The notes below the pieces were generated by a model, which saw nothing but the letters and a program-made list of their open reading frames with translations, had not been told where the DNA came from and did no database searches. From Daphnia pulex (Eukaryota > Arthropoda > Branchiopoda > Diplostraca > Daphniidae): a stretch of 64,000 nucleotides of DNA. Of this stretch, positions 42,648-53,162 are shown piece after piece (position 1 is the first letter of the stretch; every line of letters begins with the position of its first letter). The stretch spans positions 1,426,001 through 1,490,000 of the forward strand of contig NC_060023.1 of NCBI RefSeq assembly GCF_021134715.1. Direction: 5' to 3'. The translations under genes were made by a program, and so were the position numbers.

Positions 42648-45600
42648 TCAGGGGTTAAGCTTGATACAGTCGTGGAGTGGAATCAGAGTATCCAGTTGAC
42701 TTTCAGCGACATCCGACTGTAGAAGGTTTTCGGGTTTGATGAGATTCCATTTATAGCTGGTCGAGGGTTCGAACTTGACGTCACCACGCGGTTTGGTGAT
42801 GAGCTCAAACAAAAATCCAAGCGTTTTCTGACTGACTTCTCTCATGCGCTCCTGGGATGGCGCTGCGTGGTGCTGACTGAATGACGGTGCGCCCATAACG
42901 GAATTCAACCAAAATCTAATTTTGTTGATGAGAAGCACATCCTAAAGGGAGATACAATAAAAAACTGTGTAAATATTTCGTGAAATAGAAAACAACAGTA
43001 TAAACACTAACCGTAAGACCAATCTCCGAGTCAAATGTAAGTTCCATATCATGTTCAGGATAGAAGGATTGCTGCTTCACTTGATCGTAACCCAACCCAC
43101 AAATGGCACCCGTAAGGCGTTTAATCTCCTTGTCCGCCCGGAATTCAGCTCTCGGGGCAAAAAGAAGCGTCAGAATGGCCGGTAAACCGGGGATATTTGG
43201 AAGCAGAGTGGTGCTGCGAGCCTGGACATGGCGACCGTTTTGTTGAGATCCGACCTGTAAAGAAGAAGAATTTAAAAATAAAATGTAAAACATAGTGATT
43301 CAAGGTATCCTTACGTGAGCAGCAACGAGAACGCGCTCGTGATGATCTCCAGGTTGATCTTCCAGTATAACTGAGTTGACGGAATCATCTTCTATCTTGA
43401 CCAGGCTACCCAAAAGGGATTGCACTTTGCCGAACATCTTCATCTCCAACGGATTAACAGGGCCAACGAGTTTGACAACAGAAGTTTCATTGCGACTGTA
43501 ATGTCTTGGCTCGTCAACTTCAAGTTCCATTGCCAAATACTCGGCAGCCACAGATCTCTGTTCCTCCAACCTAGTGAGCGTAAAATTGTCAATTTCATTA
43601 ACCGATTTTTTAAAATTTAAAATTATAAATTACTCTCGTTGTCGGTGTCTAGCCATGTGAGAATTCGGCTTGGCTTCTTGTGCGGATTGACGCTGTTCAT
43701 TATCTTGTTTGTTCATAAAAGATTCATCCACTTTGACGGCGTAGTTGAGTTTCAACATCTGATCAGCGAATGAATTCTCCCAACTGCCACCTTCTCCAAT
43801 CAGATCCATAGATGTGATTCCATTGACGACCGAAAACACCTACGTAAAATTATTCGAATTTAGTTAGAAAAGTTCGGTGCATGCACAAGGGTCTCACCTT
43901 GGCTATCAGATGAATTCGATTATTTAAAATAATAATTGGCACTCTACTCACCCTAGCTGTAAGTATTTGATCCACCGTCTGCAACTCAAACCATTCTTTG
44001 CCGGACTTTGTCCACTTTCCTTTGGGATCGTTGATAAATGACGGACCCACTCCTGTCAGATAGCATTCAATGGCCAAAGGCGGAAATTTGAGCAGTCCAT
44101 CAGACACCACTTTCAAATCCTTGACGTGGGCCTCGGCTGCGTTGCCGAAATCGATGAAATAAAGGCGGACGCGTTGCTCATGAATCGGCACGCCCTGCTG
44201 CGTGCTGAGCACCTTGGCTCGATAGTACTCCACGTAATTGTTGGCGGCTTTGAACGGACCCATCACCAAATTGCCCTTGACGACGGGAACTTTAATATCC
44301 CACCTCTCCAAGCGACTACCCTGTGGCCCCACCAGGCCGGTAAGATGCTTGTAATCTCTTTTGGAGCGACTATCCAAGCGGTGGCACCAGAAATGATTGG
44401 GCTCCTCCACGTGACACACGCTTACGGGTAACTCGTTTTCATGGAGTTCGGGCAGACGTGGTCCCGGAATCTGAAGGACGTACGGTACTTCACTCCGATT
44501 GCTCAGACCTGACACCACCGATTCCACGTCACTGATGTTTAACAAACGTCTAGCCGACTCTTCCACCTTTAAGAAAAAAGAAAATATATATATTTTTATA
44601 AATCTGTTCCAACCATCGGTTTCTGCAACACATACTCGAGAACGGTATAGTTCGGCATCCCTCTTGTCAAACAACCGCACGTGATAGGGAATACCGAGTA
44701 GTCTCTGTTTGATGGCCAAGTAAACGGGCAAGCAGATCCTTCCGGGAACTCTCCTATTTTGGGAAGGATTTCCCTCTTGATGAAATTGAATGAACACCCT
44801 CTGCGAATCAAACGAGATCTTGGCATTCCATGTATCCTCCTTCAGCATAGCTTTTGGACAGGAAAACAAAACAAAAAAATAAATAAATAAGAGAAATTCT
44901 AGAGAGAAAATTGTAAGTAAAGAAACTCACTAAAGATTTCCGACATGCTGTTCTTAATTTGTCGGACATAGGCTTTGCCGGGTTGATTCGCTGGAAAATT
45001 GGTAAGTTTAACCGTTTTGAATGGATCCAATCCGCAAAGAGATTTGACGGCCTCGCGTTCATCGATCTGCCCGCTGATGGCGTCACGTGTGAAATAATTC
45101 GGATAAAAGGCGCCGTAGAGCACGACACGAAGCAGGAGCGCCTTTTGGCTTCCCGTAAGCGGTCTGACGTTCGGTCCGATGGCTTCTTCAATACCGATGG
45201 AATGTAGACGGAATTTGATTTCTTTCACCAAGATATCCATCTCCTATTGCGAGTGTAGAAGGATACAAAGGATAAGAACAATTTCGACCCTTTTTTCTTT
45301 TTGCAATTATTACCTTGAGCGCTTTGAGTTGGATGAAATTGGCATGCGCCCAATTCTTCTCCCGCATTCTTTCCGACTCTCCGCTCCTCTTAAAGTGCTC
45401 TTGCCGCTCCGAGTTCTTGTACACTTGGTATGCATTAAGGATTGTGATGGGGTCGCTGAAGGAGCCTTCTGCCCATTGCATTTTAACTTGGTAGGCCAGC
45501 AGCTTCTTTTGATAAGGAGAAGTAAAAATGTTCTTTGAACTGAGCCCGGCTGCCATAATGATGCACTCTTCCAGGATGTTGAACACGTATCCTATTTAAA

Positions 45601-48051
45601 CGAACCAATTGGTATATACACACACAGACACATCAAGTCAACATTTCCCAGAAGACCAAGAGAACGAGGTCAGAAAAGAATAGAGAGTATGATATGAAAA
45701 ATATATACGTACCGAGCATAACTAGCTTGCCCAAGTGGACGTCTATGGGGAGGCGAGAGACGACTCGACCGAGGTAACTTAAGTCACCATCGAATGAGCT
45801 GACAACTCCGTTGACTGTTGTGAATAGAGCTCCCATTTCTTTGAGTGTCAGGATTGTCCTGGCGATGTTACCATATTTGGGAGGGTCGATGACGAGTGCC
45901 AACATTTTCTCGGGTGGATCCAAATCCAACAACTTGGTACGCAAGACGGTCTGCTCCAGGGGACAGCGAAGGATCTCGGGAGTCACGTCATCAGGCAATT
46001 TCCTAGGGACGAGAAATTCAGTTAGTTACGACGTAATCGCATGACAAGTGATTCAATTGTTTGTACTCGTCGTAGAAGCGATTGAAAACCATTCGGTAAA
46101 CAACACCCTCGGTGACACGACCAACACGTCCTCTGCGCTGCATACAGTTGCTCTTGGCAGCCCACTCCAACTAATAATAAAAGCAAAAAAATGTGAAAGA
46201 GATTTGTTGAGGTAAAAATAATACGAATTACCTTGAGGGAGCAAAAGTTCGTTTCCGTATCGGTGGTGAGCTGCTTTGTCAGGCAGAAATCAATGATGTA
46301 CGTAATGTCCGGAACAGTGATTGAGCTCTCGGCGATATTGGTGGAGAGAATGATTTTGCGAAAGTGCCTAAAGTTTGGAGGCAAACTTGAAATGGGCTGG
46401 AAAACTCGACTTTGCTCTTCGCTAGTGATGCGTGAATGCAGCGGCAGGATGTGCCAATAGTTCTTGTGGACCGCATTGGTCTCGAAGTCTATCAGAGCTT
46501 TGTGCATGGCCTCGATTTCGCCAATGCCGGGCAAGAATATCAGGACTGCACTCCGAACGCTCGAAATATTTTCATACTCGGAATGACGCCCGTAGCGATT
46601 GATTTCCCGTTTGCTGTCGAAAGCAGCGATCAGCCGACTTACAAGTTCGTACTGGAGTTTATCAATTCGAGGAGTCTCATCGTTTGGATCTACCGTTGCC
46701 GTAAGAAACTGCAAATAAACCGAATTATTCATACTGTGCCTAAATGTTAAAGTTTCTGTGATGCGAACTTACCCCTAATTGTTTAAGGGAATCCATGTAG
46801 TAAACGTTGATGTTAAAAGGCTCGGCGGGGTCCACATTAATTATAGGAGCGTTGCGCCAAGGTCTTTCCCCTTTCGGAAAGTCGCCCAATTCAGGGGTTT
46901 TGAAATACTGAGAAAACTTTCCAGCATCGGCTGTGGCTGACATCAAAATAATTTTGGTTGGCGTCTTTGTTTTGCGGAGGAATCTGTTTATAACCAACAG
47001 CAAGAAATCGGTGTCTTCATCTCTCTCGTGAACTTCATCGACAATAACTAAAAAACAAGAAATAATTTGAGGTTAACATAGTTTCACACTGTTGAAAACA
47101 AATAAACTTACTGTGAGTGTAGCCTTCAAGAGTTTTGGTGGCAACTAGTGTCTCCAAAAGACATCCAGTGGTTACATAAGTGAGCAGGGTAGACTCACTC
47201 ACTTGCCGTTCCATTCCAACCTAACAAAATCAATTGGATGAATTAGGATGGGCAATTTAAAATTGAAATGATATGCTAGTTACTCTGTATCCAACAACGG
47301 TTCCAAGAGTCCAGTTCCTTTCAAAGCAGACTCTTTTAGCAATACTGATGGCTGCAATACGCCTTGGCTGGGTGACAACAATGTTGCAAGGTGTTTTGTT
47401 TGCATAGCATTCATCCAGTATGAATTGAGGCACTTGGGTTGTTTTACCACAGCCTGTGAAACCCTTAATGATGATTGCATTTTCTTTCTTCAGCATATCA
47501 AGAATGGCTGTTCTCTCTTTATCAATCGCTAGAGGGGGACGGTTAGGTGGATCGAAACAATATTGAGTGAATGCAGCCGCTTTCGCTTGCACACCATGAA
47601 GATCCAGAGCAAGGAGCATGTCTCCACAAAGGGTTGACTCATCCTCAAGCATGCTCATACCACCACCTTTCAATCTGCATTCATTGTAGCTTTGTGCTAA
47701 ATTTGCAGCCTAACAAGATATTATGAATTTTAAGAAGCAATTCAAAAGAACACAACCACAATATTCACCTCCATAGCTTGCTGCCTTTCTTCTTCCCGAT
47801 ACTTCTCAATATACTCTGTATTGTTTTCAGTGAAATAAGGTTGTCGTACTGCTTCTGGGGACCTTTACCATTCAAACAAACCAAGGGTACAATTTAAACA
47901 GATTCAATCATTCCCAAGAATGCTTTATTTCAACTTACGATCTCCTTCTTCTTCTTGAAGACGTGCCAGGGGCGAATGTCCCCATTTCAGCCATTGTTTT
48001 ACCAAACATCAGCACATCAAACATATCTTCTACGGACGTCGAATCGGCCAT
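42648..48051 (-). CDS. spn-E: spindle-E / TDRD9, DEVH-box Tudor helicase of the piRNA pathway, 16 exons, 1435 aa
   Basis: Exons: 48051-47939, 47862-47769, 47709-47284, 47220-47112, 47047-46773, 46708-46232, 46170-46067, 46002-45713, 45591-45314, 45243-44931, 44850-44636, 44566-43952, 43839-43634, 43570-43315, 43254-43012, 42941-42648. All phases join; the total is almost the length of the fly protein. Walker A is GFTGCGKT (152-159), the DEVH box lies at 251-254, SAT follows (ILMSATADAG), and motif VI is QRRGRVGR (509-516). A helicase-associated region follows, then a Tudor domain from about residue 945 (CHVEEPNHFWCHRL to YFIDFGNAAE). From the family: an RNA helicase needed for piRNA amplification and transposon silencing in germ-cell nuage. 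The donor of exon 7 is weak (GA|GTACAA); a donor 18 b further on also keeps the frame. Confidence 0.93.
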
Positions 48052-48270
48052 TTTCAATAATTTCCTAAAAACATACCCACCTGCTGCAAACCAGGCTTAC
48101 AGTTGGAATGATTCAGCTACAAGTTTTAACAAAGCGACCCACGTGAAGATAATGTCTTGTATTATTGTGGAAGTCATGCGACGTTGCCGGCTAAAAGAAT
48201 TAAGAAAACGATTTTTTTTTTCAAAACAAAGGCAGAGCCATAGATACCTGGTCAGTTCATGGCTGTGTTG

Positions 48271-48277
48271 GCTTCCC
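48271..48277. repeat. target-site duplication GCTTCCC, left copy
   Basis: Seven bases of the outer element's terminal repeat are repeated on both sides of the inner element; the partner copy is 51394-51400. Reading GGCTTCCC on both sides gives 8 b but makes the two inner ends differ by one base. Confidence 0.75.
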
Positions 48278-48507
48278 CAGAGCTATAGATACCTGGTCAG
48301 TTCATGGCTGTGTTGGCTTCCCTATCCCGGTTTCAGGGTAAACGTAAGCCGATTTTCAGGGGGTTTTAGGGCGGAGCCTGTCAGAAGTTGTGAAGTGGAA
48401 ACTTTAAAAAGAGCCATCTAGTGATAAGACGTTGAGTTTCAAATAATACTTTCGGCGGCCATTTTTGTGTATTACGTGAAAGAAGCCTAACCATAATTTA
48501 TGTAAAA

Positions 48508-48795
48508 ATGGTTGGCAGGTGTGCTGTTCCTGGTTGTAAATCAACATATTACAAAGGAAATCAAAAAGAAAATGAGGTTACCCTGTTTGCAATTCCTAAA
48601 ACTTCATTATCAAAATGGCAAGAAGTAATTCCATGTAGTAATTTGACGAGCACCTCACATATTTGCTCCCGTCATTTTAACGAAAGTGACTTTCAAACAG
48701 GGATTGAAATTTTGAACGTGTTCCATCCTTACAAACGGTGGACTCTTAATGCTGGAGCAATGCCCTGGAAACCAACATTTTCTGTTAAATGTTAA
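48508..48795 (+). pseudogene. THAP-domain ORF of the inner element, truncated to 95 aa
   Basis: The ATG at 48508 opens a THAP zinc finger: C-x4-C at the start (GRCAVPGCKSTYYK), the invariant Trp, C-x2-H (ICSRHF) and a terminal AMP motif. It matches exon 1 of the THAP gene of the outer element (51814-52912) almost throughout. Where that copy has a splice donor (ATG|GTATG), this one has ATGTTAAAA, so the frame runs into TAA at 48793. The other three exons are absent and captured host DNA follows. It is therefore a truncated gene, yet the DNA-binding domain is intact. By analogy with truncated P-element proteins it could act as a repressor; that is speculation. Confidence 0.8.
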
Positions 48796-50100
48796 AACCA
48801 CCAAAGCTGTCCAATATCATTGCATTATTTCTTGCCAAAGCTGCAGCCATCGTTCAAGATCCTTCTCACCCAATGTACCGTGCAATCAATAACTTTCTAC
48901 TGGTATGTTCCTGTTAATTGATTGCAATTTCCTTCTCGTTTAAAACTTAAACGCCATTCCTTTCATTGTTTCTAGGTAAAATCGGCTATGGATGTTACCC
49001 AAGTTCCAGAATTTTTCGTCATGCTTCATAACACTGAACTACCTGAACAGAGGTCGCTTCAAAGGAGTTTTTTACTCAGCCTTCTTCAAGATGGCATCAA
49101 AAGTCGTCAGGACTATTTAGTGTGTGCTCGAAGAAGAGTCTTTCCAATCCTTCTCTCCTTGCAGCCATCCAATCTATTGTCCGACAAAACTGATAAGGTT
49201 ATTTTTTTAGTAATTGAATTTTAGTTTGAGATTTCATCGAGACATTTTTCTTTGTTTGATTTACAGCGGCTCATACTTGAAGTCGTACAATCTTCACTTC
49301 AGAATTCAATCATTACCTATGACTTGATTCAACATCGTGGCCTTATCATGTGGCTTGACAGCCTCTTGCTGACCGACACCGTTGCAGATGAAGCTAGTCA
49401 GATGGTGTCGGTGGTGACGACAATGTGGGACACGCTCTACACTCACATGCTGAAGAAGGGAGAGTCGAAAGAAAAGGACGACGAAGAAGCTATTGCAAAA
49501 CTTGAACAGGAGGTCGAAATGATGGAAGCCGAAGACGAAGATACCGCCGACAAAACCACTAACAAACCCAAGATGCAGAATGCTAAAATCAGTAGCAGAA
49601 AACCTATTTGGAATTTACTTCCTATGCAGCAACAAGTTATTGCTCCCTGGATCATGTGTGAGCTAATGCAGTTGATGGTCAATTTGTGGCATGTACTCTA
49701 TGAAGCTGAGCCAAACTATGCTACGTTTAACAAATACGCCCGAGTATTATGCTCCGTCGCTTCACACATTCACGAATCCAAAAGCATCATTTAAGCAGCT
49801 CAGGAGAAGGATTTGAAGACCGTCCGGTTTGTTACCCCTCCCTGCATGCTGAATGTTAAATTGATGCGACAGCTCGTTGAAGTCTCATCCCGCTTTGTGA
49901 GTAATCTTCCCAATCTAAAGGATCATTTGGCAGTAGTTGAAAGTTCCAAAAAGAAATCCTCGGCTTGCCCAACAGAACTTAGTCGAAACTGGGAACGAAG
50001 ACACAGGTATATGCGAGAACTTATGGACCAAGAAGAGACAAATGTTTCAACCAGATATAATGTGCACAAATTATTGTCTTTAGCTGAATGTGGTGTTTGA
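48792..50100 (+). pseudogene. URB1: captured 3' fragment of an URB1-like (nucleolar pre-ribosomal associated) gene
   Basis: Three exon pieces with introns kept: 48792-48902, 48976-49197 and 49267-50100, all phase 0. The protein reads as the C-terminal region of URB1/NPA1 (ALFLAKAAAIVQDPSHPMYR, LLQDGIKSRQDYLVCARRRV, HRGLIMWLDSLLL). From the family: URB1 is a large nucleolar scaffold for 60S ribosome assembly. Only the last part of the normal gene is here, with no promoter or start, and TAA at 49792-49794 interrupts the frame about 100 codons before the natural-looking stop TGA at 50098-50100. The start lies right at the junction with the THAP sequence. The URB1 identity is by recall of family sequence and could be checked easily. 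Confidence 0.72.
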
Positions 50101-50239
50101 AATAACAATGACAATTTTGTTTGCATACAAGGAGAACCTCGTGATACGATTTCTTTTATTTTTCATATCCACTACAGCATATCTTTGCCATTTGATGTAC
50201 ATATTTCTTTCCCACTATAACGCAGCCAACTTAAAATTT

Positions 50240-51028
50240 CTAGACGGGTTGTTTAAGGAGAGTGGTGTAACGTTCAATCTTTGATGCCAAACTCATGTCG
50301 ATGTAGCGATCTCCAAGGACAACTACAAGTCCTCAACAATGGAGGGATCCACCTTGGTTGAAATCTTGAGAGACTGTCCTTTCTGCAAGAATCCAGAAAG
50401 AGCGGCAGTAACCTCTTTCAATGTAGCAGCATCCAAGGCCTTGATATAAGAATAGATTTTTTTAAACATTTAATTGTTTAATGTTTTTTAGATTTATATT
50501 TTACCTCGGCTGAGGTGACCTCACATACAACTTCACCTCTGAATGCAGCTATCATGTTAAAGAAATGGCCAGTGACAACATCCAATTTGTTAAGTCTTCC
50601 ATTCTCAGCAAGGAGTTCTGTAATCATAAACATATGAATAACAATTAGAATAAAGTGAAAACCAATAGAAAAGAAAAACTTACCAAGGAAGTTGCCTGTA
50701 ACAGCACTCATTTTCAATTTCTTGGCAACTGAAATAAGAGCATCTTTCTTAAGTGATCTCTTCAAAGTGGGGTTGGCAATGAATTCTGCCAAACGAGAAT
50801 CTTTGGCGATAGTTGCATGAAAGTCCTTCAACTCGCTCTCAACTTTGTCCAAAGATTTCTGTTTGGAAGCAGCAGAGTAGAGTGCTGAGGCATAGCGACC
50901 TTACAACCCAAAAACTTGGACTGGAGCCTATAACAATTACACAATTAGGTTAAATGTACCTGTACCACACTCACATGATTTACCTTCACCAACTGCTGGG
51001 ATGATGAACTGGTGCTGAAGTTACGAGC
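50240..51028 (-). pseudogene. ATPsynO: captured ATP synthase OSCP (subunit O) gene lacking its first exon
   Basis: Four exons with introns kept: 51028-50984 (ARNFSTSSSSQQLVK, end of the mitochondrial presequence), 50927-50684, 50617-50505 and 50439-50240. The protein is clearly OSCP of the mitochondrial F1Fo stalk (LDKVESELKDFHATIAKDSR, LAENGRLNKLDVVTGHFFNM, SLKISTKVDPSIV). Two lesions break it: a stop TAA at 50903-50901 where the family has Glu (FGL-stop-GRYAS), and a one-base deletion near 50332 that shifts the last 35 or so codons; the lost frame still ends at a TAG at 50242-50240. Exon 1 with the start codon is absent, cut off at the captured-DNA boundary near 51150. The gene lies tail to tail with the URB1 piece, 139 b apart, as expected if one genomic segment was captured. 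Confidence 0.9.
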
Positions 51029-51150
51029 CTAATAGTTGGAAAGTAAAAACATTCATTGAAAATAGTACAACATTTTATAAATTACGGCAAATTAATTTAG
51101 GATTGTGCGAAAACAACCGGCTATTCAAAATCGAATATAAATTCGGCTTG

Positions 51151-51597
51151 AAACTTAGAGGTTTGACAGTTGGATATTTCTACCTTTTTATTATTGTTCA
51201 CTTCTTGTAGAAAAGTAAGCTGTGATTGGCCAATGAGTTTTTCATAGACCCTTCCTGATTGGCTGGCTTCACGTAGTAGCTGACACACTCACTAGAGGCG
51301 CTTTTTAAAGTTTCCAAATCGGCTTACGTTTACCCTGAAACCGGGATAGGGAAGCCAACACAGCCATGAACTGACCAGGTGTCTATAGCTCTGGCTTCCC
51401 TATCCCGGTTTCAGGGTAAACGTGGTCCGATTTGGAAGAATGAATGAGCGCCTCTAGTGAGTGTGTCAGCTACTACGTGAAGCCAGCCAATCAGGAAGGG
51501 TCTATGAAAAACTCATTGGCCAATCACAGCTTACTTTTCTACAAGAAGTGAACAATAATAAAAAGGAGAAGTATCCAACTGTCAAACCTCTAAGTTT
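51151..51597. repeat. long inverted repeat at the inner/outer junction
   Basis: Arms of about 200 b (51151-51355 and 51395-51597) are reverse complements with few differences, around a spacer of about 40 b. They are the subterminal regions of the inner element's right end and the outer element's left end, brought together by the nested insertion. Similarity stops at AAACTTAG on the left (51151), which marks the edge of the captured DNA. Confidence 0.85.
51394..51400. repeat. target-site duplication GCTTCCC, right copy
   Basis: Partner of 48271-48277. The outer terminal repeat continues directly after it with TATCCCGG. Confidence 0.75.
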
Positions 51598-51813
51598 TAT
51601 CTAACTTCTAAGTGTCCTATCTTTTTAAGTGTCCTCACATTTTTACATTTTATTGTTTGGTTGTGTAAAAAAAATATGTGGTGTAAATACATGGTACGTT
51701 TTATTCTCAGTTACTTTGAAATGTATTCTCTTTCTGCAATATTTCGATCTTAACACGCCAGCTGAGTCCAATATACCAGAAAGACGAGATTAAAAGTTAA
51801 TATTTATGAACCT

Positions 51814-52912
51814 TTAATGAGGAATGCATGAACAAATTTTTCGATCGTTGAAATCCTTTATCAATTGCGTTATATTTTCAACTGTTCTGAAATGGTTTGA
51901 CAAAGCAGTAGTGCTTGATGGAATGTTCTTTCCGTTGACATAATACATTACTTCTTGTTTGTTTTGAAAATGTACACTTTTCACATTATAATTTCCATTT
52001 GGTAGTTGATCCATCGAAATGCAATAAATCATTTGTTTGATTTGATCAAAAGACCATATCCAATTCTTTGGTATCATTGATAAAGTTACTAGTGACTGAA
52101 ATGTCACAAAATTAGACTTGAAATTAGTAGAGCTTGCTTCCATAGAAGGTGATGTAACTGTCGAATCTTCAATGACAACAGCAACGTTTTCGTTTACACC
52201 AGGAAGTGGATCAAAAATAGCTTCTTCAGCAGCCTGGTGAATGTCGATTGTTTCTTGAATAGTAGAGGTAACTTCCATGGAGGGTGCTATAAGATTAAAT
52301 TTAAAGCAATTGCTCTTCAAAATATAATATAAAGAGAACTATTATCAATACCTGTACTGTCCAATTTTTTTCTCTTTGTCGTAGTAGGTATTTTGTCTAC
52401 TTTTGGTCGTTTCCTTACTGATGCATTGCTAGCATTTGCTTCCACTACAAAATATATTTAAGAATTGCGTTATTTAATATTAAACAAAATAAACATATGT
52501 AAAAATACCATTAAGGTTATTTCTCCATTTAAAACAATCAACATTTTGCATTGCTTGTCGGCTAGATGTATCTAAAATGAAAATGGTTTAGTTTCTGTGT
52601 GACATTAAAGATTTTACATGAAAGGAAATACATACCATTTATGAGAAAATGTTTGGGAATTGCTCCAGCATTAAGATGCCTACGTTGGAAAGGATGGAAC
52701 ACGTTAAAAATTTCAATCCCTGATTTAAAGTCACTTTCGTCAAAATGACGGTAGCAAATAAGTGAGGTGCTCGTCAAATTGCTACATGGAATTAGTTCTT
52801 GCCATTTTGATAATGAAGTTTTAGGAATTGTAAACAGGGTAACCTCGTTTTCTTTTTGATTTCCTTTGTAATATGTTGTTTTACAACCAGGAACAGCACA
52901 CCTGCCAACCAT
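51814..52912 (-). CDS. THAP-domain protein of the outer transposon, 4 exons, 301 aa
   Basis: Exons are 52912-52636, 52571-52509, 52444-52352 and 52286-51814; every junction is phase 1, and the frame is open to TGA/TAA at 51814. Residues 1-90 are a THAP zinc finger (C-x4-C in GRCAVPGCKTTYYK, Trp, C-x2-H in ICYRHF, terminal AIP). A basic linker follows (KRPKVDKIPTTTKRKK, a likely nuclear signal), then a region I do not recognise (IPKNWIWSFDQIKQMIY and the end HFRTVENITQLIKDFNDRKI). P-like transposases have THAP followed by about 600 more residues with catalytic acidic residues; none of that is here. It may be a non-autonomous element's DNA-binding protein or a repressor. Transcription would start near the right terminal repeat. 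Confidence 0.8.
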
Positions 52913-53162
52913 TTTTACAGAAATTATGGTTAGGCTTCATTCACGTAATACACGATGATGGCCGCCGTATTCACATATTACACAAAAATGGCCGCCGAAA
53001 GTATTCAACGTCTTATCACTAGATGGCGCTGATTCATTCTTCCACTTCACAACTTCTGACAAGCTCCGCCCTAAAATGTCTGAAAATCGGGGATACGTTT
53101 ACCCTGAAACCGGGATAGGGAAGCCAACACAGCCATGAACTGACCAGGTATCTATGGCTCTG

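Follow-up and report, generated by a model that had tools for sequence, protein, structure and literature searches.

The window analysed here, a stretch of 64,000 nucleotides of the Daphnia pulex genome (C7:1426001-1490000; C numbers designate contigs), harbors a complete Pack-type transposon in which parts of two host genes, URB1 and OSCP, lie between the terminal inverted repeats (TIRs) of a P-superfamily element. This element (copy A_win; C7:1474278-1477393) is 3,116 bp long and is bordered on each side by the 7-bp target-site duplication (TSD) GCTTCCC. A sequence-only reading of the window had placed a TIR transposon holding host genes at 48278..51393; these limits proved exact, and both TIRs are complete. 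The inverted ends begin CAGAGCTATAGATACCTGGTC. The element and its parts are as follows (window positions).

48278..51393, plus strand: complete Pack-type TIR element of the P superfamily, A_win
48271..48277: left TSD GCTTCCC, sitting within the TIR of an outer element described below
51394..51400: right TSD GCTTCCC, from the flank comparison
48278..48355, plus strand: left TIR, starting CAGAGCTATAGATACC...; arms of 79 nt, 99% complementary
51316..51393, minus strand: right TIR, of the same inverted-repeat pair
48508..48795, plus strand: 95-aa open reading frame (ORF) with a THAP domain (PF05485, E-value = 1.1e-13, 52.2 bits)
48792..48796, plus strand: 5-bp filler at the left junction (the deletion junction of the copies called group A below), from the junction comparison
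48797..51125, plus strand: captured host segment
48797..48902, plus strand: URB1 antepenultimate exon, partial
48976..49197, plus strand: URB1 penultimate exon
49267..50100, plus strand: URB1 last exon including the stop codon, broken by one in-frame stop; PF16201 detected in A_win
50240..50439, minus strand: OSCP exon 5 (last) including the stop codon, with a one-base deletion within
50505..50617, minus strand: OSCP exon 4
50684..50927, minus strand: OSCP exon 3, containing a stop
50984..51028, minus strand: OSCP exon 2
51126..51150, plus strand: 25-bp filler at the right junction

Exon positions were mapped from the donor locus by transferring the donor exon ends onto the window, with indels taken into account. 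The interval 48792-51150, in which the sequence-only reading had recognized no transposon sequence, can be refined into a donor-derived part (48797-51125) and the two fillers of 5 and 25 bp; to the right, transposon sequence resumes (51151-51393). To the left, the THAP ORF, which now stops at the filler, stems from exon 1 of the gene of the parental transposon. The same reading had assigned the insert to the end of URB1 and four OSCP exons, tail to tail. Both assignments hold. The donor proteins match PF16201 NopRA1 (E-value = 1e-32) for URB1, and PF00213 (E-value = 4.9e-48) and mitochondrial OSCP structures (best E-value = 2.7e-67) for OSCP. The two pieces are convergent, their stop codons (URB1, 50098-50100; OSCP, 50240-50242) being separated by 139 bases, and the introns and this spacer are retained. 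OSCP exon 1 was left out of the capture, as the right breakpoint falls within OSCP intron 1. The coding breaks of A_win claimed earlier are all real: one stop in URB1, and one stop and a one-base deletion in OSCP. No other stop or frame-breaking indel occurs in the gene pieces, the splice sites of which were not checked individually.

A search of the genome (133,188,837 bases in 13 contigs) with positions 48792-51150 returned ten matches at nine places, all nine of which were scored. These are one donor locus and eight copies, every copy being flanked by TIRs on both sides. The single donor place, C11:2,688,039-2,690,371 (2,333 bp), matches the captured segment (2,329 bp) with 97.4% identity over 2,336 aligned columns. 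There, the five exons of OSCP encode an intact 209-residue protein, and the URB1 portion taken up by the element has an uninterrupted reading frame to its stop codon. The two genes are adjacent and convergent in one unbroken locus, with the same introns and intergenic sequence as the captured piece, as had been predicted from the window. In a screen for TIRs of this transposon family, none was found in the 5.5 kb around the donor. Since a 2.3-kb segment matches one donor locus at 97.4% and eight copies have a common junction, chance is excluded. A THAP-coding P-like element took up a single uninterrupted piece of the URB1/OSCP locus, about 2.4 kb long.

The eight copies are distributed over seven contigs (C1, C4, C6, C7 with two, C9, C10 and C11) and fall into three groups that differ in their left breakpoint and in their transposon ends: A (the window copy and C1), B (C11, C4, C6 and C7:939611) and C (C9 and C10). 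A_win is 99.8% identical over its whole length to its fellow group A copy at C1:3185917-3189030, and one group B copy lies on the donor contig, 77 kb from the donor. Six of the eight copies exhibit perfect TSDs of 7-8 bp, all different. All eight leave the donor at the same base, enter the same 25-bp filler (the C4 copy being without 6 of its 25 bases), and then continue at the same transposon position. All copies have 1.36 kb of cargo in common, in which 44 sites are variable when only ungapped sites are counted. Nineteen set all eight copies apart from the donor, 7 mark group A, 5 group B and 4 group C, and 8 are private to one copy. The groups are recovered in the tree with bootstrap values of 100 (A), 100 (B) and 98 (C), their order being weak (68). 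The right junction, the filler and the 19 derived sites, being common to all copies, indicate one capture: the URB1/OSCP cargo was captured once and then amplified as a transposon to at least eight places.

The TIRs, expected to occur elsewhere in the genome, are widespread. A search with the left end yielded 153 candidates, of which 40 were scored and the other 113 left uncounted. Among these 40, 33 match the full end (267-268 bases) and 7 match only about 145 bases (short relatives). The 33 long members comprise 8 with URB1/OSCP, 1 with a NUDT9-like cargo and 24 others; of the 18 others examined over their whole length, one (on C8) contains non-family sequence of unclear origin. Short relatives of about 285 bp with little beyond the two ends, resembling miniature inverted-repeat transposable elements, also occur (e.g. 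C12:4789193-4789477 and C9:8000538-8000822). TSDs of 25 complete family members were examined: 20 are perfect 7-bp and 3 perfect 8-bp duplications, and 2 members have none. Drosophila P elements make TSDs of 8 bp, and Mutator-like elements (MULEs) of about 9 bp. A candidate transposase-bearing member at C7:3952755-3957776, read in part, exhibits a left end 99% identical to that of an S-type member and a right end at 99%. It encodes a TNP-like RNase H domain (PF21787, E-value = 1e-20), and its protein matches the Drosophila P transposase structure 6p5a (E-value = 8.6e-10). As regards a GTP-binding insertion domain and a full-length transposase, two downstream pieces in the part of this element that was read exhibited no Pfam transposase match, and the 256-aa piece exhibited no PDB match. 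The THAP domain, the P-type RNase H core and the 7-8 bp TSDs together place the family with these TIRs in the P-element superfamily. Membership among the Pack-MULEs is rejected on the P-type transposase domain and the TSD length. A 7.2-kb candidate for an autonomous element (C3:11859307-11866555) was likewise discarded, its open frames revealing a THAP-type member with an insertion resembling a long interspersed nuclear element. By the same open-frame reading, that insertion has endonuclease, reverse transcriptase and RNase H regions.

The transposon ends and the cargo tell different histories. With one copy taken per group, differences between A and B amount to 14/1355 in the cargo and 30/751 in the two ends (Fisher test, P = 1.8e-5), between A and C to 14/1355 and 49/746 (P = 4.7e-12), and between B and C to 12/1357 and 41/746 (P = 4.0e-10), the ends being about 4-6 times more diverged than the cargo. 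Ends that had travelled with the cargo since capture would be equally diverged; the excess in the ends therefore points to exchange after capture. We infer that this took place by recombination or gene conversion between family members. Among five members without URB1/OSCP cargo that were compared, the NUDT9 element has the right end closest to group A (0.84%), and two S-type members have those closest to group C (2.5-3.8%). The alternative is that the ends differ through faster mutation of the terminal repeats, or through conservation of the cargo, with no exchange at all. It draws on the lack of an outgroup copy that would date the ends independently, and on the left ends, for which no source element was identified. 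Three observations make it improbable. A faster clock would not have spared the within-group pairs, yet in the two that were tested the ends are as similar as the cargo (A_win and A_C1, ends 1/751 and cargo 2/1358; B_C11 and B_C7, ends 1/772 and cargo 3/1358; P = 1 in both). The cargo is neutral among copies (7:20, see below) and hence not slowed. Finally, left-end divergence is patchy. The outer 120 columns of C_C9 differ at 3/120 from the S type and at 16/120 from group A, whereas its columns 420-540 differ at 1/120 from A and at 14/113 from the S type, so that this end is S-type outside and A-like inside.

Coding changes in the cargo were classified against a neutral model with a transition weight of 4, under which 28% silent changes are expected; for the part left of C11:2689033, most of which is missing from group C, the count covers the six copies of A and B only. 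The 37 differences that separate the donor from all copies comprise 17 silent, 3 amino-acid-changing and 17 non-coding ones. Differences among the copies comprise 7 silent, 17 amino-acid-changing, 3 stops and 15 non-coding ones, one site with two alternative bases being counted twice. The silent share departs from neutrality in the donor-copy set (P = 1.8e-7) and fits it in the among-copy set (P = 1.0), and the two sets differ from each other (Fisher test, P = 8.8e-5). Consequently the copies decay neutrally, and the donor-copy divergence accumulated mostly under purifying selection. In non-coding sequence, donor and copies have diverged by 3.6-4.0%, and the groups from one another by 1.2-1.9% (one copy per group). 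A capture at the time of the donor-copy split is rejected, as it predicts about 16 amino-acid changes on the copy side against 3 seen on both sides (P = 1.1e-4). With half that time, and equal clocks assumed throughout, the same test gives P = 0.046, and with a quarter of it P = 0.44. The scarcity of amino-acid changes thus places the capture nearer to the radiation of the copies than to the donor-copy split, and the captured allele was probably a functional haplotype already unlike the assembled donor allele. This agrees with the finding that no coding break is common to all eight copies.

The gene pieces are accordingly passengers, neutrally decaying since capture. A domesticated cargo, with a putative coding or regulatory role such as a fusion of THAP with URB1, or antisense or small RNAs directed at URB1 and OSCP, is very improbable. 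The pieces are long and might give both sense and antisense transcripts, group B retains the transposon's first intron upstream of URB1 as judged from its junctions, and regulation of parents by captured pieces has been proposed for Pack-TIRs in PMC8277862. Nevertheless, the differences among copies fit neutrality, which rejects a coding role. Moreover, of the three stops counted among the copies, two arose in A and one in B, and several frame-breaking indels likewise originated in different groups.

The left junctions are specific to each group, the donor sequence starting at C11 position 2688039 in A, 2687996 in B and 2688887 in C. In group B, the start of the second transposon exon is joined directly to C11:2687996. 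Group A exhibits a deletion across a B-type junction to 2688039, plus 5 extra bases. Group C retains more of the transposon, but its donor part starts only at 2688887. Neither B nor C is derivable from the other by deletion alone, so an ancestor that extended further on both sides, and was then shortened independently in each, is probable. These differing breakpoints, with transposon ends that differ by 4-7%, might instead be taken to mean that A, B and C stem from two or three separate captures of one donor locus. We judge this very improbable. The right breakpoint, the filler and the 19 derived sites are common to all eight copies, and three independent captures are rejected on the common right junction with its filler. 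In addition, all eight carry one THAP-exon subtype found otherwise, in the sequence examined, only in C6:6922036 and C5:4072357, both without URB1/OSCP cargo.

How the piece was acquired may be pictured as follows. A double-strand break or a stalled fork inside the element would have been repaired by template switching to the URB1/OSCP locus, leaving the 25-bp filler at the right. A P-type transposase acting in trans, for example from C7:3952755-3957776, would then have moved the chimera. Later abortive repairs could have eroded the left junction independently in different lineages and also swapped the outer ends for ones from other subfamilies. The junctions, read as blunt at the left of group B, with the 25-bp filler at the right, and with perhaps a 2-bp overlap at the left junction of group C, appear compatible with template switching, short of proof. 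According to PMC8277862, gap repair with foreign filler has been demonstrated for the P elements of Drosophila, and template switching followed by transposition is proposed as the origin of multicopy Pack-TIRs. Capture at the DNA level, claimed by the sequence-only reading from the introns, stands; a retrocopy or processed gene insertion, for which only the presence of gene fragments inside a repeat would speak, has practically no probability and is refuted by the retained introns and intergenic spacer, with two genes of opposite strand joined.

Overall, we consider it highly probable that the window element is a Pack-TIR of the P-element superfamily with a history of capture, amplification and end exchange. 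The earlier interpretation is supported, and the search for further copies that it suggested led to the eight TIR-flanked copies on seven contigs, the window copy included. Beyond it go the amplification to eight copies, the P-superfamily placement, the nesting of the element, the end exchange and a second gene capture by a relative. Several points weigh against our reading. None of four members without URB1/OSCP cargo comes closer than 4.6% to any group over the whole left end, and the donors of the exchanged left ends were not identified among them. The repair mechanism has left no direct trace beyond the junctions, and C7:3952755-3957776, known from a partial reading, is a candidate mover only. 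Two of the eight cargo copies, on C6 and C10, have no TSD and may be rearranged. No copy has the ancestral left junction, B having more of the donor and C more of the transposon, and at least two later deletions are needed. One of the 44 variable sites groups B_C4 with B_C7. Lastly, a 2-base OSCP deletion, absent from C_C10, is shared by C_C9 and the four B copies, which requires recombination or recurrence. The copies without TSD are C6:6595980-6599223 and C10:2796204-2800071, the latter also with a 397-bp insertion in the URB1 part.

The element corresponds to the Pack-TIRs as defined in PMC8277862. The termini of one TIR element stand on both sides of the insert. The insert lies within 100-5,000 bp, with at least 90% identity to its parent and a length ratio within 80-120% (2,329 against 2,333 bp, 97.4%). 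The 100-bp flanks of the parent, screened for transposons of this family by their TIRs, contain none, and the insert is not an intronless copy of a multi-exon gene. As to the definition of multicopy Pack-TIRs there, six of the eight copies have distinct TSDs and two have none, and the left junctions are group-specific. That survey of animals (Nat Commun 2021) covers 100 genomes and lists 370 cases, of which hAT and TcMariner elements make up 323. Its multicopy cases in reference genomes number four, three from frog and one from alligator, and Ssk-FB4 in flies is a further one. One frog example is a 291-bp piece in three chromosomes. The survey calls TIR-mediated duplication almost unexplored in animals, and its main text holds no mention matching Daphnia or a crustacean. 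A limited literature search on Daphnia and capture likewise returned no TIR gene capture in Daphnia, as judged by titles and the start of abstracts.

The Daphnia case resembles the animal Pack-TIRs described in PMC8277862 in having host sequence between the TIRs of one element with the parent elsewhere, breakpoints within the element, short filler or microhomology, and later transposition with different TSDs. Where most of those are hAT or TcMariner, it belongs to the P superfamily; it measures up to 2.4 kb, combines two genes, has eight copies and has exchanged ends. With Ssk-FB4 of Drosophila melanogaster, as presented in that paper, it shares the multicopy state, a separate TSD at each locus and a de novo insertion at one of the breakpoints (45 bp in Ssk-FB4, 25 bp in Daphnia). 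Ssk-FB4, however, carries nearly one whole gene in a MULE-like element with signs of positive selection, whereas the Daphnia element carries two gene tails in neutral decay. The sequence pick-up by Drosophila P elements cited there involves the same superfamily and foreign sequence copied by gap repair; it followed artificial activation of the transposase, whereas the Daphnia case is natural and amplified. The plant Pack-MULEs, with gene fragments between TIRs, work alike (PMC8277862), but the Daphnia element, with its P-type transposase domain and 7-8 bp TSDs, is not a MULE. The Daphnia element is therefore of a known kind, the Pack-TIR, and is unusual in its superfamily, in two convergent genes taken in one piece, in its eight copies and in its exchanged ends. 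Pack-TIRs are rarely multicopy in animals, and this case is well preserved. It offers an example, in an animal, of transposons duplicating and shuffling genes. The donor, the eight copies, the filler junctions, cargo-free relatives and an element with a transposase domain are all in one chromosome-scale genome, so that capture by repair, what becomes of exons once captured, and the end exchange can each be put to a direct test.

A relative of the window element carries part of a NUDT9-like gene, a second capture in the family. The member at C5:2206984-2208832, with the TSD GTCTACAA, contains 1.15 kb of non-family sequence with exons of an ADP-ribose pyrophosphatase (PDB 1q33, which we take to be human NUDT9, E-value = 2e-26; NUDIX, E-value = 4.8e-7). 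This cargo matches C10:9417385-9418554 at 90%, where more NUDT9-like exon sequence can be read upstream. The flanks of that place (435 and 296 bases) exhibit no further element match and no 7-base TIR string. The last 326 bases of the NUDT9-like cargo recur with a right end at C10:6365592-6366182, the left end being not found in the sequence examined there. Another member, C8:8697339-8699552, is flanked by a perfect TSD and includes 786 bp foreign to the family, possibly a third cargo; 744 of the 786 bases were searched and matched scattered repeats across the genome. We put forward, tentatively, that the family may be a recurrent gene packager, with at least two captures (URB1/OSCP and NUDT9) and at least nine of the 33 long members carrying cargo. 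Cargo might pass between TIR subfamilies by end exchange, cargo and transposition signals being separable modules, and the URB1/OSCP piece might come from a differing haplotype, maybe of another lineage, e.g. by introgression.

The window element itself is a nested insertion inside the TIR of another member of its own family, which it cuts into two parts:

48233..48277, minus strand: 45 bp of the TIR of the outer element, cut from the remainder by the Pack element
51394..53162, minus strand: remainder of the outer element over 1.77 kb, a THAP-type non-autonomous member with its THAP end at 53162

The sequence-only reading was right that the ends match another element but took this to be a neighbour. 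A simple neighbouring pair is ruled out by the nested insertion, with GCTTCCC on either side. With the insertion closed by script, the outer element is about 1.81 kb long and aligns end to end with the members at C10:2936479 and C3:6007971 at 95-98%, apart from a gap of about 140 bases midway along the outer element. No TSD was seen in the flanks read around the outer element. A second case of self-insertion may be present at C10:11207897-11211435, where the ends suggest an S-type member (11208561-11210297) nested in another.

Beside the nested transposons, the minus-strand gene at 43853-48051 resembles Spindle-E/TDRD9, a helicase of the Piwi-interacting RNA (piRNA) pathway. Its best PDB match is the Spindle-E structure 9nhs (E-value = 7.6e-29), and it exhibits a downstream Tudor domain (PF00567, E-value = 1.1e-13). 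As read, about 180 bp separate the apparent start codon of this gene (48049-48051) from the end of the outer element, which lies upstream of it.

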